Notes under the pieces: generated by a model
What the model was told of the DNA's origin: nothing
Database searches by the model: none
What the model saw: only the letters and a program-made list of their open reading frames with translations
Made by a program: the position numbers and the translations under genes
Shown here: positions 2,697 to 5,922 of the stretch, piece by piece
Layout of the letters: each line of letters begins with the position of its first letter
Numbering within the stretch: position 1 is the first letter of the stretch
Assembly: GCA_020052975.1 (NCBI GenBank)
Contig: JAGVOC010000123.1
Span: 1 to 5,922, forward strand
Source: Desulfobacterales bacterium
GTDB lineage: Bacteria > Desulfobacterota > Desulfobacteria > Desulfobacterales > RPRI01
Length of the DNA: 5,922 nucleotides
Reading direction: 5' to 3'

Positions 2697-3026
2697 TCAA
2701 TCTTTTAATTGATCAACAGATAAGCCCATTGCTTTGGCTAATTTTTCAAGTGTAGCAGTTCTTAATGTATTTTCGGTATTTTCCATTTGTGACAAGGCTG
2801 CCTGAGTAATACCCGCTTTCTTTGCAATTTCTGATTGGGTGATCCCAAGGTATGTACGCCATGCTTTTACAAGGTTCATTCCTTTTTTAATGACAAGCCC
2901 AACGACTTCATGAGGTATTGTGACATCTTCTGAAGGTAATAATTTAATATATTCATCATAGGGTATAACCGCAAAGACAGGCTTACCATCTTGTTCAATA
3001 TATTGGATATTAGTAGGTATTTTCAT
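2697..3026 (-). CDS. XRE-family antitoxin with Phd/YefM-like N-terminus
   Basis: 109 residues in two parts. Residues 7-30, IQYIEQDGKPVFAVIPYDEY and IKLL, resemble the strand-rich start of Phd/YefM-type antitoxins. Residues about 55-107 are a helix-turn-helix of the XRE/Cro type: WRTYLGITQSEIAKKAGITQ AALSQMEN..., with the recognition helix around 74-83, then LEKLAKAMGLSVDQL. Family knowledge: such proteins neutralise a RelE/HigB toxin encoded beside them and repress their own operon. The ATG at 3026 has AGGAGGT 11 nt upstream (3045-3037 region) and overlaps the last 17 bases of the toxin gene, so the pair is translationally coupled with the toxin first, as in higBA-type loci. The gene is followed within 4 nt by the palindrome cluster. 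Confidence 0.85.
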   Translation of the reverse strand: MKIPTNIQYIEQDGKPVFAVIPYDEYIKLLPSEDVTIPHEVVGLVIKKGMNLVKAWRTYLGITQSEIAKKAGITQAALSQMENTENTLRTATLEKLAKAMGLSVDQLKD

Positions 3027-3258
3027 TTCTAATCTTGACCTCCTCTATGTATAGAATTTCAAATGATTCAGTAAAGAAAACTCTCCAACGGCCAACTCGA
3101 AGTCTAAATTCATCTCGATCTTTCAATTTCTTTACATTTGAGCAATTTGGAAAATTTTTCAAATCATCAACAGCATCATAAATTGTCTCTCTTGTGTGAT
3201 AATCTTTAATTTTCCGTAATTGTTTGAGAGCCTTTGGTCTCCATTTAATATTCTTAAT
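3010..3258 (-). CDS. RelE/ParE-family mRNA interferase toxin with probable ATT start
   Basis: The frame gives 82 residues if read from ATT at 3258: (M)KNIKWRPKALKQLRKIKDY, HTRETIYDAVDDLKNFPN, then NVKKLKDRDEFRLRVGRWRV and FFTESFEILYIEEVKIRNEN TY. WRPKALKQLRKI, the VKKLK...FRLRVGRWRVFF strand block and a C-terminal VKIRNENTY are the RelE/HigB fold order. Basic residues K43, K44, K46, R52, R54, R57 and R59 and the C-terminal Tyr fit ribosome-dependent mRNA cleavage by this family. The length is normal and there is no internal stop. No ATG, GTG or TTG exists in frame before residue 30; an in-frame TAA lies at 3276-3274. ATT aligns with where homologues begin (MKxIxWxPKALKQL). Either ATT initiates, perhaps on a leaderless message, or the ATG was lost and the toxin is silent. 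Confidence 0.75.
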   Translation of the reverse strand: MKNIKWRPKALKQLRKIKDYHTRETIYDAVDDLKNFPNCSNVKKLKDRDEFRLRVGRWRVFFTESFEILYIEEVKIRNENTY

Positions 3259-3264
3259 AGAAGA

Positions 3265-3306
3265 AAGATAAACTTATAATATAAGCATGTCAAGTATAAT
3301 TATAAG
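3265..3306 (-). promoter_or_regulatory. Promoter and candidate operator of the RelE/XRE operon
   Basis: On the minus strand a perfect TTGACA (3293-3288) is followed after 17 nt by TATCTT (3270-3265). The expected transcription start, seven bases on, is 3258, the A of the ATT that best starts the toxin, so the message may be leaderless. CTTATAAT (3273-3280) and ATTATAAG (3299-3306) form perfect 8-bp inverted arms around the -35 box, a suitable operator for the XRE antitoxin. Promoter boxes and arms are seen; repression and the start site are inferred. Confidence 0.6.
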
Positions 3307-3320
3307 TAATCAATAAATAA

Positions 3321-3389
3321 AATTTACCGCTAACAATTAATATAAGTATTACCTATTTTCTTCCCGGTAATGAACTTAGCCGGTAAATT
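3321..3389. repeat. Long imperfect inverted repeat, intergenic
   Basis: AATTTACCGCTAA (3321-3333) pairs with TTAGCCGGTAAATT (3376-3389) over 13 bp with one bulged C. Inside it ATTACC (3348-3353) pairs with GGTAAT (3366-3371). The 69-bp structure has asymmetric internal loops. It lies upstream of the RelE/XRE promoter and overlaps no gene. The GCTAAC/TTAGC ends recall attC simple sites, but the spacing does not fit the other three sites, so I do not call it one. Confidence 0.45.
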
Positions 3390-3610
3390 GGAGACGATTA
3401 TATAATGATTTACTTTGAAATTCAACTATTATTGTGGAAACAATACCGAAAATGTGTTTATTATCACAAAGCAGATAATACCCATAAAATAGTTTTTTTG
3501 ACATGAAACATGTCTAAGAAGCGAATGGACTGTCCTATCTATCTGTAGACTTAAGATGGACAGAACTATGAAGGGTAGGAAAAGGGTTACGTACCCTTTT
3601 ATCCGCCGCA
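3390..3610. other. Gene-free stretch with three small hairpins
   Basis: No credible coding frame is seen here on either strand. Visible structures are GACATG-AAA-CATGTC (3500-3514); CTGTCC-T-ATCT (3530-3540) pairing with AGATGGACAG (3554-3563) around one bulged T; and AAAAGGGT-TACGT-ACCCTTTT (3580-3600 region). The last could weakly terminate leftward or rightward transcripts, but a clear U-run is missing. The region separates the presumed end of the cassette array from the RelE/XRE operon. Confidence 0.4.
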
Positions 3611-3637
3611 ATGGCACGACGCGAAGCGTCGGGCCAT
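3611..3637. repeat. GC-rich hairpin abutting the last attC-like site
   Basis: ATGGCACGACGC (3611-3622) and GCGTCGGGCCAT (3626-3637) form 12-bp arms with a single mismatch and a GAA loop. The right arm is the degenerate R' box of the attC-like site at 3631-3696, so the two structures share seven bases. It could terminate the transcript of the transporter cassette (about 70 nt after its stop) or be a remnant of a further recombination site. Confidence 0.5.
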
Positions 3638-3696
3638 CGATAAGCTGAGCCGGAGCAGCCCATGGGGTCGCGATAGGCTCTAGCGCCGGGTTATAC
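3631..3696 (-). other. attC: attC-like recombination site (attC3), 66 bp
   Basis: Read on the minus strand: R'' GTATAAC (3696-3690), 5-nt spacer CCGGC, L'' GCTAGAGC (3684-3677), loop, L' GCTCAGC (3650-3644), 6-nt spacer TTATCG, R' position ATGGCCC (3637-3631). L'' pairs with L' as GCT(A)GAGC/GCTCAGC, leaving the fourth base unpaired, the extrahelical-base arrangement of integron attC sites. The site begins 3 nt after the transporter stop codon. The R' box lacks the GTT core, so the site is degenerate or the array ends here. Geometry is seen; recombination competence is inference. Confidence 0.62.
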
Positions 3697-4367
3697 CTTT
3701 TAGTGGCAGTCTTCGCAAACCTCACCACGCAAACCTTCAAAACCCTCGCGCGCGATAATTGGCGCCATGATTAGTGCTGCCACGGGGTCAGCCCACCACC
3801 AGCCCAAAAGTGCGTTTAGTGCAAGACCTCCAAGAAGAATAGCCGAAAGATAAGCGCAAATATCAGTCTGACGCGAGTCTGCCATCATGGCGCGGCTTTC
3901 CAGGTTTGATGCCGACTGGCGTTTTGCGCGAGCGAGGAGCGGCATGATTATAAGCGAGACGATAGCTAACCCAATACCAACGAAGCTGGTTTCTGGCGAC
4001 TCATGAGTAAGAAGAGACTTGATGGCTTCAAAAGCGACATATGCCGCAAGGATAAGAAAGCTAATACCCACAAGCTTGAGGGCGATCTTTTCGCGGCTCT
4101 CTTCGTGAACGGGAGAGAAAAGTCGCCAGAGAAGCACGGAGCCGGAAAGACTTTCAATAAGAGAATCAACTCCGAATCCTACCAATGCAATACTACCGGC
4201 AAACCATCCGGCTCCGATAGCTACACCTGCTTCCACTATATTCCAGCCAATGGTAAAGTATTCAAGCTTTCGACCCTGTTTCAAATGCTTTGTGCGCTCA
4301 GCGGAAGAGCAAGAAGAACACTCATTATGATCAGTCATACGTTTCTTTCATTATTGAGATGGAATAA
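3637..4367 (-). mobile_element. Integron gene cassette carrying the cation-efflux gene
   Basis: The cassette is bounded by the R' position of attC2 upstream and of attC3 downstream. Its 5' end reads TTATTCC (4367-4361); the reverse complement of the R'' region of its own attC3 is GTTATACC, which agrees at six of the seven bases after the G. That match is expected because the two ends form one attC in the excised circle. The single gene nearly fills the 731-bp unit, leaves 22 nt of leader and has no visible promoter of its own. It is visibly more GC-rich than the genes around it, consistent with independent origin. Confidence 0.6.
3700..4338 (-). CDS. Small cation-efflux (CDF-type) membrane transporter
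   Basis: 212 residues. Hydrophobic segments lie at about 28-46, 48-70, 87-107, 117-137, 160-181 and 183-197, the six-helix layout of cation diffusion facilitators. GFGVDSLIESLSG (54-66) is the helix 2 metal-site motif with D58, and MMADSRQTDICAYLS (151-165) with D154 is the helix 5 counterpart; WWADP (181-185) follows as in the same subfamily. Such proteins exchange protons for divalent metal ions across the inner membrane; the metal is not predictable here. The usual C-terminal cytoplasmic metal-sensing domain is absent. Instead both ends are cysteine-rich: C7/C10 (ECSSCSS) and C208/C211-H212 (VCEDCH), which could bind metal. The ATG at 4338 has only a weak AAAGAAA in front; a six-codon frame starting at 4351 ends across this ATG and may couple translation. 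It is the only gene of its cassette and depends on upstream transcription. Confidence 0.85.
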   Translation of the reverse strand: MTDHNECSSCSSAERTKHLKQGRKLEYFTIGWNIVEAGVAIGAGWFAGSIALVGFGVDSLIESLSGSVLLWRLFSPVHEESREKIALKLVGISFLILAAYVAFEAIKSLLTHESPETSFVGIGLAIVSLIIMPLLARAKRQSASNLESRAMMADSRQTDICAYLSAILLGGLALNALLGWWWADPVAALIMAPIIAREGFEGLRGEVCEDCH

Positions 4368-4490
4368 TGCCCTAACTAACTTGTGGGCGGGCTATAACCC
4401 AAGAAAGTTCTTTGAAAAAATATTTGTCGCAAATATCAGAAGATCAAAAGGGCACTTATATAGCCCATCAAGTTCAGTGAGAGGTTATCG
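4362..4490 (-). other. attC: attC-like recombination site (attC2), 129 bp
   Basis: On the minus strand: R'' CGATAAC (4490-4484, containing the TAA stop of the PIN gene), 5-nt spacer CTCTC, L'' ACTGAACT (4478-4471), long variable loop, L' AGTTAGT (4381-4375), 6-nt spacer TAGGGC, R' ATTATTC (4368-4362). L'' and L' pair as ACT(G)AACT/AGTTAGT with the fourth base unpaired. The stem continues inward with TTG/CAA and GGGCTATA (4466-4459) with TATAGCCC (4396-4389 region). The crossover base, normally G of GTT, is A. Length and spacings are within the range known for attC (about 57-141 bp). Confidence 0.7.
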
Positions 4491-4901
4491 TTTCAGTTTC
4501 GAGTAATCATCAAGAAATTGTTTCGGGCTCTGTATCTTAATACCCATATAATCCCTTATTTCTCGTAAAGCTTTGTCCCCTGAAATAATAGATTTTGAAT
4601 TTAATGCCACTGCACACTCAATAAATTTGTTATCATCAGGATCTTTTTCAACAACGTTTAAATTCGGAGTTTTGGCGGCGAATAAAACATGAAAGCCATG
4701 CGCAAAAAGACTCAACAACTCTTCCAGCTCACGCTCATTCTGTAGTCCCATACGGCTGAGTACATCTACATATTCATCAATGATGGGACGGGAAAGGCAT
4801 AAAATAATTTGGCCGGATTTCCATAAGTCAATGATTTTTCGAGGATTGCCATCAAAGAAAGAAGATATGAAAATATTTGTGTCAACCACTACCCTGATCA
4901 A
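4485..4901 (-). CDS. PIN-domain ribonuclease toxin (VapC-like)
   Basis: 138 residues, the normal size for PIN toxins. The start VVVDTNIFIS places D7 and N9 in the first strand. E43 in PIIDEYVDVL, D90 in EKDPDDNKFIECA and D109 in SGDKAL complete the acidic quartet that binds Mg or Mn for RNA cleavage, so the active site looks intact. It resembles the PIN group annotated as putative toxin-antitoxin system toxin component more than short classical VapC. Translation starts at TTG 4901, which overlaps the antitoxin stop as TTGA; GAGG lies 8 nt upstream. The stop codon TAA is embedded in the R'' box of attC2. Targets (tRNA, rRNA or mRNA) cannot be predicted. Confidence 0.87.
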   Translation of the reverse strand: MIRVVVDTNIFISSFFDGNPRKIIDLWKSGQIILCLSRPIIDEYVDVLSRMGLQNERELEELLSLFAHGFHVLFAAKTPNLNVVEKDPDDNKFIECAVALNSKSIISGDKALREIRDYMGIKIQSPKQFLDDYSKLKR

Positions 4902-5143
4902 TGTTTGGTCCTCACGTCACGAATAACGCTCTTAACATCCTTGGGGCCAACCCCACTTGACGCGAGTTTACCTCCGATACGGTCCCATAGATTACCAATA
5001 TAAGAATCGATATCTCGGGTTTTGACATATTCTTCGAGCAATTCCCTGACCACTTCACTCAAACTTTTCCCTTCTACCTTAGCAAAATTATTGACTTTGG
5101 CTTTGAGATCAGGATCGATCCTAACTATCATTTGAGTTGTCAT
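4898..5143 (-). CDS. Ribbon-helix-helix (CopG/VapB-like) antitoxin
   Basis: 81 residues. TTQMIVRIDPDLKAKVNNFA (2-21) followed by KVEGKSLSEVVRELLEEYVK (22-41) is a ribbon-helix-helix unit: the MIVRI strand contacts DNA and the two helices dimerise. The tail (42-81) is charged, with WDRIGG in the middle, and would wrap the PIN toxin. Family knowledge: dimers bind operator palindromes and, with toxin, repress the operon. The ATG at 5143 has a strong AGGAGG 6 nt upstream. It is the first gene of a two-gene operon, overlapping the toxin start by 4 bases. Confidence 0.85.
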   Translation of the reverse strand: MTTQMIVRIDPDLKAKVNNFAKVEGKSLSEVVRELLEEYVKTRDIDSYIGNLWDRIGGKLASSGVGPKDVKSVIRDVRTKH

Positions 5144-5206
5144 TATAAACCTCCTCTGATCATGTTATAACATATATACAATATATCATTCGTGCAGATA
5201 TGTCAA
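5144..5206 (-). promoter_or_regulatory. Promoter, operator palindrome and RBS of the RHH/PIN operon
   Basis: Minus strand: perfect TTGACA (5206-5201), then a -10 candidate TATTGT after 17 nt (5183-5178) or TATATT after 15 nt (5185-5180). Downstream lies ATGTTATAACAT (5162-5173), a perfect 12-bp palindrome that suits a ribbon-helix-helix repressor, then AGGAGG (5155-5150). The promoter lies inside the cassette, so the pair is expressed independently of any integron promoter. Binding to the palindrome is inferred. Confidence 0.6.
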
Positions 5207-5235
5207 TGGAGGAATAATCTTTAAAAAATTTGAGA

Positions 5236-5294
5236 CGATAACGGCGCTAATCAGCCGCCGAGTTTACGAGGTCGGCTGGACCAAATTGTTCGCA
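5236..5294 (-). other. attC: attC-like recombination site (attC1), 59 bp
   Basis: Minus strand: R'' TGCGAAC (5294-5288), 5-nt spacer AATTT, L'' GGTCCAGC (5282-5275), loop beginning CGA, L' GCTGATT, 6-nt spacer AGCGCC, R' GTTATCG (5242-5236). L'' and L' pair as GGT(C)CAGC/GCTGATT with the fourth base unpaired. Order, spacing, the C bulge and the AATT spacer closely parallel the classical attC of aadA cassettes. The crossover GTT is intact, making this the best preserved of the three sites. The R'' box is not fully complementary to R', as is normal for an inserted site whose R' belongs to the next cassette. Confidence 0.75.
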
Positions 5295-5319: not shown

Positions 5320-5547
5320 CTAACCGAAAGCAGCTACTGGTACAGATCGCTCTTTTGCAAAACTTTGGCGGTGCAATTTGATGCGTTCAATCTCGTGCAA
5401 TGTCTCAGATGTTAGATAGCTTTCCCCACAATGAGAGCAGGTGACCACAGGGACATTCTCTATAATAAGCAAATCCGAGCCCTTACCATAACTTCGGGTC
5501 ACGTGACGAACTTGAGCATCTTCTTGTCCACAAATATCACAAATCAT
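5320..5547 (-). CDS. YgiT-type zinc-finger antitoxin (MqsA N-domain-like)
   Basis: 75 residues. C3-x2-C6 (MICDICG) and C37-x2-C40 (VVTCSHCGESYL) form the zinc-binding knuckles of YgiT/MqsA-type proteins, separated by the variable strand region. A helix (TLHEIERIKLHRQSF, 49-63) and the SVPVAAF ending follow, as in short members that lack the DNA-binding domain of full MqsA. Such proteins usually follow a DUF4258 toxin gene and neutralise its product. Here a DUF4258 reading frame ends 8 nt upstream. The ATG at 5547 has AGGTGA 4-5 nt upstream overlapping the toxin stop. The stop codon lies 26 nt before attC1, so this is the last gene of its cassette. It appears intact although its partner is not. 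Confidence 0.8.
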   Translation of the reverse strand: MICDICGQEDAQVRHVTRSYGKGSDLLIIENVPVVTCSHCGESYLTSETLHEIERIKLHRQSFAKERSVPVAAFG

Positions 5548-5555
5548 TTTTCACC

Positions 5556-5792
5556 TCATATTTTGTATACAGTGATAATCACTAATTTGCCAGTGATACT
5601 CAATTTACCAATCACAACCGACATGCCGGCTGAAATGGTTCCACCTTCAATAAGGTATTTCCACTCTTCTGTATTTTGGTCTTTTTGTCGTTCAACGATT
5701 TTACCTGTAAGAACAACGCGTTCGATGTCAAAAAGGGGGATTTGGGGGACGACCTTAAATTCGTAAATAACATTATTAAACAGTGTGGATAT
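5556..5792 (-). pseudogene. DUF4258-type toxin, N-terminus missing
   Basis: From 5729 leftward the frame encodes DIERVVLTGKIVERQKDQNT, EEWKYLIEGGTISAGMSVVI and GKLSITGKLVIITVYKI, ending at TGA 5558-5556. This is the C-terminal two thirds of a DUF4258 protein: DIE-x-V-x-L-x-G-x-IVERQ, the central WKYLIEG strand and the closing LVIITVY strand. Family members have about 25 further residues with a conserved His before this point. Here the frame continues upstream as CCCAAATCCCCCTTTT-type sequence and an inverted-repeat element, to a stop at 5795-5793, with no ATG, GTG or TTG. The N-terminus has therefore been replaced and the toxin is probably inactive. The paired antitoxin gene downstream remains open. 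Confidence 0.68.
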
Positions 5793-5813
5793 TTAATTAT
5801 TTAAGGTCGTCCC
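5746..5813. repeat. 68-bp element with 15-bp perfect inverted repeats
   Basis: GGGACGACCTTAAAT (5746-5760) and ATTTAAGGTCGTCCC (5799-5813) are perfect inverted copies around a 38-bp AT-rich core. The element is flanked on the left by the G-rich motif AAAAAGGGGGATTTGGGGG. It lies exactly where coding similarity of the DUF4258 toxin stops, so it or its arrival probably truncated the gene. No target duplication is evident. A small non-autonomous element or a strong hairpin terminator are both possible. Confidence 0.6.
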
Positions 5814-5858
5814 TCTTTTCTCTCTGCCAACGAGCAAAAAGGTTCGTTCTTAAGTTAT

Positions 5859-5885: not shown

Positions 5886-5922
5886 TAATGGATAATTTTA
5901 CCCTTGACATCGGGAGGCCTTA

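Follow-up and report, generated by a model that had tools for sequence, protein, structure and literature searches.

How can a run of gene cassettes carry an attI recombination site when no integron integrase gene (intI) is found beside it? The question is raised by a window of 5,922 bases (the whole stretch analysed) from the draft genome of a Desulfobacterales bacterium (1,917,122 bases, 108 contigs, 73.9% complete). The window shows the minus strand of contig C20, and its base 5922 is C20:1, the contig end. Coordinates given without a contig or locus name are window positions. The array genes are on the minus strand, and all genes between the sites have the same direction, as the first-pass annotation of this DNA had stated. 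The region is predicted to be a short run of cassettes carrying three modules of toxin-antitoxin type and a CDF transporter. It is highly probable that this is a degenerate cassette array with an orphan attI. If this anatomy is right, loading of the array in trans is somewhat favoured; the complete reading, in which a cassette run with a predicted attI and no intI alongside is loaded in trans, with the integrase gene at another place in the genome, has about an even chance. The earlier interpretation, an integron-type array with three attC sites, overlooked both the attI copy at 3599-3332 and a fourth site. Comparisons were made among eight genomes of the family (the host and seven relatives), five of which form one genus.

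The orphan attI

The predicted orphan attI (3599-3332, minus strand, family A) has its crossover at G3334^T3333, and the copies of this repeat end at G^TT. The eight family A copies with an intact core have a mean identity of 76% in the 60 bases that lead up to G^TT; beyond that point it falls to 35%. Homology halting in this way is attI behaviour. A profile of eight copies (window copy included) matches the stretch between the start of intI and the first cassette on contig C1 of the relative G004 (E 4.6e-11). The place between intI and the first cassette is thus occupied by the G004:C1 copy, and not by the window copy, which lacks an adjoining intI. On its left the window attI has the CDF cassette as neighbour, with a half attC (site 1) in between; the three copies in the host genome share one left edge. 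Inside the attI and pointing to the crossover, a consensus scan predicts a Pc-like promoter pair (TTGAAT-17-TATAAT, 3425-3397, minus strand); a similar pair was seen by eye in seven of the eight aligned family A copies. Treating the 268-base element as one long attC was rejected: no L''/L' pairing was seen by eye at its ends, and a copy adjoins intI in G004:C1.

Lone attIs in the genus

Searches of the eight family genomes found family A at 12 places, family B (the attI of host contig C57) at 7 and family C (the attI of G003:C63) at 14, all in the five genomes of the one genus. With L046, a 3,127-base contig of another metagenome-assembled genome titled Thermodesulfovibrionia bacterium DeMMO2_3, the total is 34 copies, 25 of which have an intact G^TT and are considered below; the other nine were set aside. 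intI sequence is present beside five of these crossovers (G004:C1, C57, L046, G003:C63 and G001:C234, the last two with a partial IntI match). The other 20 have no intI gene alongside. Two of them have an intI fragment (G003:C37, G002:C2) and two have less than 1 kb of upstream sequence (G001:C73, G003:C85); at the remaining 16, the window's included, no IntI match was found upstream (tblastn, E 1e-3; at least 2.6 kb covered). An exact complementary R'' stands behind 12 of the 25 crossovers, compared with a mean of 11% when R' boxes were swapped between loci; the window's attI is not among these 12. Because copy after copy stops at G^TT, the end of attI can be placed to the exact base in three lineages with no experiment needed.

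Some loci are occupied by more than one family. At the 3' end of an aldolase gene (gene named by eye; records L112/L183, L111, L172 and L116), family A is found in G001 and G004, family C in G003, and family B with intI in the host genome. At an alaS/bamD-like locus (also named by eye; L182, L165), family A is found in G003 and family B in G004, and the upstream sequences are 90.3% alike over 1174 bases. In sister species, different attI families thus sit at the same chromosomal place.

Different DNA behind orthologous lone attIs

Two pairs of orthologous lone attIs bear on loading in trans. The aldolase loci G001:C17 and G004:C13 are 91.5% identical over 1115 bases, which include the gene-attI junction (a 6-base gap) and the attI; the sequences diverge from G^TT on, and no intI lies in between. 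G002:C219 and G003:C2 are 95% identical over 1166 bases and 92.8% identical over 180 bases of attI, G003:C2 having about 150 extra bases between the two stretches. This pair also diverges behind G^TT, where G003:C2 holds only 232 bases; these are 98.3% identical to a cassette of G002:C2. A cassette shared between a lone and an intI-linked attI is also found: that of L046 is 95.7% identical, over 563 bases, to the one behind the lone attI of G004:C18. Where no integrase is encoded locally, the simplest source of clean changes at G^TT is an integrase acting in trans, and the different DNA behind orthologous lone attIs suggests, from these comparisons, that such a step may have taken place.

The proposed mechanism is as follows. 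The integrase would cut the folded bottom strand of the attC of a circular cassette between G and TT, and the cut attC would be joined to the attI at G3334^T3333. The newest cassette, here the ParE/XRE pair, would end up adjoining the promoter-like element at 3425-3397, from which it might be expressed. A wider version is tentative, with somewhat less than an even chance: the integron of this genus would be a distributed system, in which many lone attIs of three lineages, with their own promoters and at fixed chromosomal loci, exchange cassettes by means of integrases encoded at a small number of further loci, one attI type taking the place of another at the same locus.

The integrase

The host genome encodes a full integron integrase on another contig, C57. 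TIGR02249 exceeds its cut-off once (C57:332-1621, 429 amino acids, 451 bits, cut-off 265). The absence of a visible integrase, noted in the first-pass annotation, is therefore true of contig C20 and not of the genome, and the window stops at the contig end. No IntI match is found on C20, whose array runs to the contig end, and no complete integron is present on that contig; C57 itself ends 331 bases upstream of its intI. The C57 protein (L116 332-1621) has about 114 extra N-terminal residues, TIGR02249 covering residues 115-429. The extra part weakly resembles a core N-terminal domain, and longer fused integrases are mentioned in PMC2426708.

L046 and C57 are 99.74% identical over 1538 bases. 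Identity stops at C57:93, inside the crossover box GTTATGC, and the sequences differ behind it; one integrase-attI pair is therefore followed by two different first cassettes in two assemblies. The adjoining aldolase gene is only 94.2% identical between L046 and L116, against 99.74% for the intI-attI stretch; the integrase stretch may therefore have moved between strains, or a bin may be mixed.

Anatomy of the attC-like sites

All four sites are on the minus strand. Site 3 (5294-5236) is an attC: TGCGAAC-5-GGTCCAGC-19-GCTGATT-6-GTTATCG, with five Watson-Crick pairs and two wobbles in its stem. Site 2 (4490-4362) is attC-like: CGATAAC-5-ACTGAACT-89-AGTTAGT-6-ATTATTC, with 7/7 pairs and ATT in place of the expected GTT; it overlaps the stop codon of the PIN gene. 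Site 4 (5890-5825) is new and attC-like: CATTAAC-5-AAATGGTT-26-AACCTTT-6-GTTGGCA, with exact geometry and a 7/7 stem. Site 1 (3696-3631) is a half attC: R'' is GTATAAC and the stem GCT(A)GAGC/GCTCAGC pairs 7/7, and at the spacing required for R' the sequence is ATGGCCC. R''/R' and L''/L' boxes at fixed spacing, with the unpaired L'' base, are thus present in sites 3, 2 (ATT for GTT) and 4, and not in site 1. The claim that three sites follow one attC rule holds for the geometry of sites 2 and 3, with the ATT of site 2, and fails at site 1, which has no R'.

The 19-base loop of site 3 is identical to the loop of a site on host contig C34. That site stands behind an antitoxin-like gene, which has a relative in the G004:C1 array. 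The arm type and loop length of site 3 also match those of the first attCs behind attI in G004:C1, G003:C58 and G003:C85 (same genus).

ATT replaces GTT in R' at three attC-like sites of the host genome (window 4362-4368, L084 3246-3306, L085 1374-1459); a possible fourth case was read by eye near L082 90-100. The change of G to A in the crossover triplet seems to recur in this genome. Site 1 (window 3613-3685) and a similar site on contig C5 (L119 91-164) share 18 identical bases behind L' plus 5, a pattern that would fit a displaced R'; the flank behind the C5 site is the end flank of the G004:C1 array. Other cassette-like arrays of the host genome, off C20 and C57, are on C40 (L084), C60 (L082/L085) and C34 (L118).

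Statistical support for the sites

Exact geometry was defined as AAC, 5 bases, 8 bases (fourth unpaired), a loop of 3-110, 7 bases, 6 bases, and GTT or ATT. The scan yields sites 2, 3 and 4 on the minus strand and zero sites on the plus strand of the window. Two full-stem matches are present on the minus strand, compared with a mean of 0.04 per strand in 200 shuffles. At the stem level of site 3, 0.93 matches per shuffled strand are expected; its stem alone therefore proves nothing.

Because a trimmed-loop covariance model is weak on long-looped or AT-rich sites, it was supplemented by a log-odds scorer that leaves the loop length free. This scorer was trained on 34 attCs, all from other genomes and none of them a window site. 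Training sites were collected with a first scanner (strict GTT), whose matches were scattered over both strands at most loci and had to be read in array context; 35 candidates were kept, one of which was dropped by eye, and eight others were skipped for spacing or weak stems. The pair counts of the training sites are not used as evidence, because pairing helped to choose them. Over both strands of the window, site 3 ranks first (17.6 bits) and site 2 second (15.5 bits). Site 1 (7.9 bits) is like the chance matches (7.3 and 7.6), and site 4 has less than 4 bits. In 150 shuffles, at least 15.5 bits were reached seven times and at least 17.6 once; no shuffle had two matches of at least 15.5. Sites on C40 and C60 reach 22.8-33.4 bits, and C34 has 27.3 bits.

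Folding of the bottom strand, which the first-pass annotation had proposed as a check, gives z-scores of -2.2 for site 2, -1.1 for site 3 and +0.8 for site 1; site 4 has -2.1. An Rfam scan of the window (E up to 10) gave 13 matches, all under gathering scores. The pattern GCTGATT-6-GTTGGC (3 mismatches) was useless in the host genome, with 443 matches against 207 for the reversed control.

Pairing of cassette ends

Because the start of a cassette and its R'' derive from one circle, they pair; no such pairing is required between the two boxes of one attC. In the window, R' and the R'' of the next junction (same cassette) pair at 3, 4 and 3 of their 4 outer bases, a total of 10/12. These pairs include R' of site 4 with R'' of site 3 (3/4), and R'' of site 2 is the full complement of R' of site 3. 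The two boxes of one site pair at 0, 1, 2 and 1 of 4 outer bases in the four sites, a total of 4/16. At eight loci of relatives the counts are 65/76 for same-cassette pairs and 55/116 for same-site pairs. An integron-type cassette array is supported in part, by the scorer ranks and by the cassette-end rule, and not by site 1 or by covariance. The array is very probably real but weak and partly broken, with poor attCs.

Loading in trans, relic or split integron

Several results weigh against the reading of a cassette run loaded in trans. Some concern the sites: the scorer gives 30-59 bits to left-out training sites, so the window sites are weak attCs. The covariance search proposed in the first-pass annotation gave no significant match at any of its three sites, with a model (R1) built here from the same 34 sites with trimmed loops and not that of IntegronFinder. 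With filters off, site 3 has 6.3 bits in the window (E 3.6), six other places score higher, and there is no minus-strand match at sites 1, 2 or 4. In 31 kb of own and related loci the window sites all fail E 10, and over the whole host genome only C60 and C40 are listed, the window sites being absent. With default filters, in 142 kb, site 3 reaches 13.9 bits (E 1.5, not significant); in the same search 21 sites of relatives have 24-50 bits, 19 of which are training sites. Neither an R'' that would pair with GTTAGCG nor an attC was detected behind the ParE/XRE genes.

Other results concern the integrase. The C57 IntI, linked to a family B attI, has only 47% identity with the IntI of G004:C1, whose attI is of family A, and the window's attI would have to be served by an integrase of another lineage. 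An intI neighbour may have been lost from view, because C20 ends 2.6 kb upstream of the attI: the upstream stretch checked was about 3 kb at most lone attIs and, for the window's, extended to the contig end. Nearly all genomes used are draft assemblies, in which attI repeats may cause wrong joins. The differing sequences behind orthologous attIs could also predate separate losses of intI, or be due to homologous recombination or to such joins.

Part of this evidence is shared by a dead relic, which has the same anatomy: lone attIs and cassettes would have been frozen since the loss of the local intI, with no integrase acting now. At G003:C37 and G002:C2, intI fragments next to the lone attI show that the gene was lost by deletion, and the weak attCs and broken site 1 of the window are what a relic might retain. 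In Xanthomonas, strains with the same intI lesion usually have identical arrays (PMC12444791). The relic is nevertheless considered rather unlikely: the two orthologous lone-attI pairs keep their upstream junction or flank, yet in each pair the DNA is unlike from G^TT onward, and so clean a change suggests that an integrase acted after intI was lost.

It is improbable that the window belongs to a split ordinary integron, in which C20 would be the distal portion of the array that begins on C57, and an unusual cassette (delta-attI type) would have 3599-3332 as its attI-derived 3' end. C20 and C57 both stop on the array side, the CDF cassette is the left neighbour of the window attI, and attI-derived cassette ends of several lengths occur in class 1 and 2 integrons (PMC12901181). 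However, the C57 attI belongs to another family, the lone copies at other loci are preceded by chromosomal genes or a piece of intI and not by a cassette gene, and R'' of site 4 (CATTAAC) misfits the first C57 cassette, whose start is TTATGC.

It is very improbable that the hairpins are terminators and 3599-3332 an ordinary dispersed repeat unrelated to integrons: each hairpin is weak by itself and further dispersed palindromic repeats are present (5735-5824, 2587-2692), but box pairing across a gene would stay unexplained (terminators would give the opposite pattern), the repeat adjoins intI in G004:C1, its copies end at G^TT, and a terminator scan, limited to 3200-3720, found none.

Relation to known systems

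attG sites are short targets with no known attI ancestry. They resemble the window site in that they place cassettes away from intI; unlike them, the window site is homologous to an intI-linked attI.

Like a CALIN (cluster of attC sites lacking an integron integrase), the window has a short one-direction array of genes bounded by predicted attCs and no intI on the contig. Unlike a CALIN, it holds an attI copy, and its attCs are weak, with one half missing. CALINs are described as common, and as possibly mobilised in trans, in PMC9024848, PMC9668308 and PMC12444791.

The sedentary chromosomal integron of Xanthomonas (ilvD locus) has a fixed place beside a housekeeping gene, intI deletions and a retained array (PMC12444791), and is similar in these respects. 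It differs in that orthologous lone attIs here precede different DNA, where strains with one lesion usually share an array there. Several lone attIs of three families are found here, and attI families replace each other at one locus. Cassettes of delta-attI type (class 1 and 2 integrons) share the sharp right end at G^TT and the varying left ends, according to PMC12901181; here, by contrast, up to 268 bases are present, including a promoter-like element, and several copies follow chromosomal genes.

One survey counted roughly one in three intI genes as a pseudogene (PMC2426708), and attI-like off-target sites are mentioned in PMC10127599. attI is poorly described outside class 1 and is therefore undetected by the standard program (PMC9024848). 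Dispersed lone attIs of several lineages are absent from the titles and abstract openings of the literature searched, in which subscription journals are mostly uncovered.

If lone attIs are still loaded in trans, an array without intI is no dead end, and a single integrase could supply a number of expression sites in a genome. Some of the arrays now classed as CALINs may then be serviced docking sites, and why attI must adjoin its integrase would become directly testable.

Gene content of the array and adjacent features

The YgiT-type zinc finger/MqsA-like antitoxin gene (5320-5547, minus strand; TIGR03831 51.7 bits, cut-off 20.2) lies upstream of site 3. Its protein is 69% identical to a relative encoded on G002:C218, where the unit lies between GTTATGTG and CACATAAC (boxes by eye). 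The window gene is preceded by the 3' remnant of a partner gene (5556-5713, minus strand), presumably of family DUF4258, with a 65% DNA match to G002:C218 and its start lost beside a dispersed repeat. This palindromic repeat (5735-5824) separates the partner gene from site 4, whose R' touches the repeat edge. Copies that are 92-98% identical are present in host contigs C15, C107, C25, C40 and C77, and the repeat is also found in G004.

The second module comprises an RHH antitoxin gene (4898-5143, minus strand; PF01402 30.4 bits, cut-off 20.5) and a PIN-family toxin gene (4485-4901, minus strand; PF13470; TIGR00305 55.4 bits, cut-off 29.15). It is followed by the CDF cation efflux gene (3700-4338, minus strand; PF01545 48.7 bits, cut-off 26.6; under the TIGR01297 cut-off). 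A CDF gene 88% identical to it is found in G202:C32, a genome of another family, directly behind an attC-type stem; that junction likewise has no clean GTT. Behind the attI, the first frame, with a provisional start codon, encodes a ParE-type toxin (3010-3246, minus strand; PF05016 33.7 bits, cut-off 23) and the next gene an XRE-type antitoxin (2697-3026, minus strand; PF01381 47.6 bits, cut-off 23).

Separate gain or loss of the loci, to which the first-pass annotation had tied its claim, is favoured by DNA searches in the family genomes: three of the seven relatives (G002, G003 and G004) have a match to the YgiT/MqsA-type unit, at 65-72%, and the RHH-PIN and CDF units match none of the seven. 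Across the phylum (297 genomes), a relative of the PIN protein is encoded by 25 genomes (E 1e-25, host included), and among the family relatives by 0/7. For the CDF protein the counts are 28/297 (E 1e-20, host included) and 1/7 (G004, 34% identical). No attC of at least 14 bits was found near PIN homologs of other families at the four loci scanned of 12 fetched, and RHH-PIN as a wide-ranging cassette is therefore unsupported.

A second palindromic repeat (2587-2692) lies between the XRE gene and the next genes, with copies in host contig C18 and in G001; it may hide an attC end. On the plus strand, the window carries a B12-binding radical SAM gene (288-1661). Past the window, C20 (L015 6889-20000) has a gene for an ABC-type ATPase and a very long open reading frame resembling a mixed peptide/polyketide synthase (named by eye).

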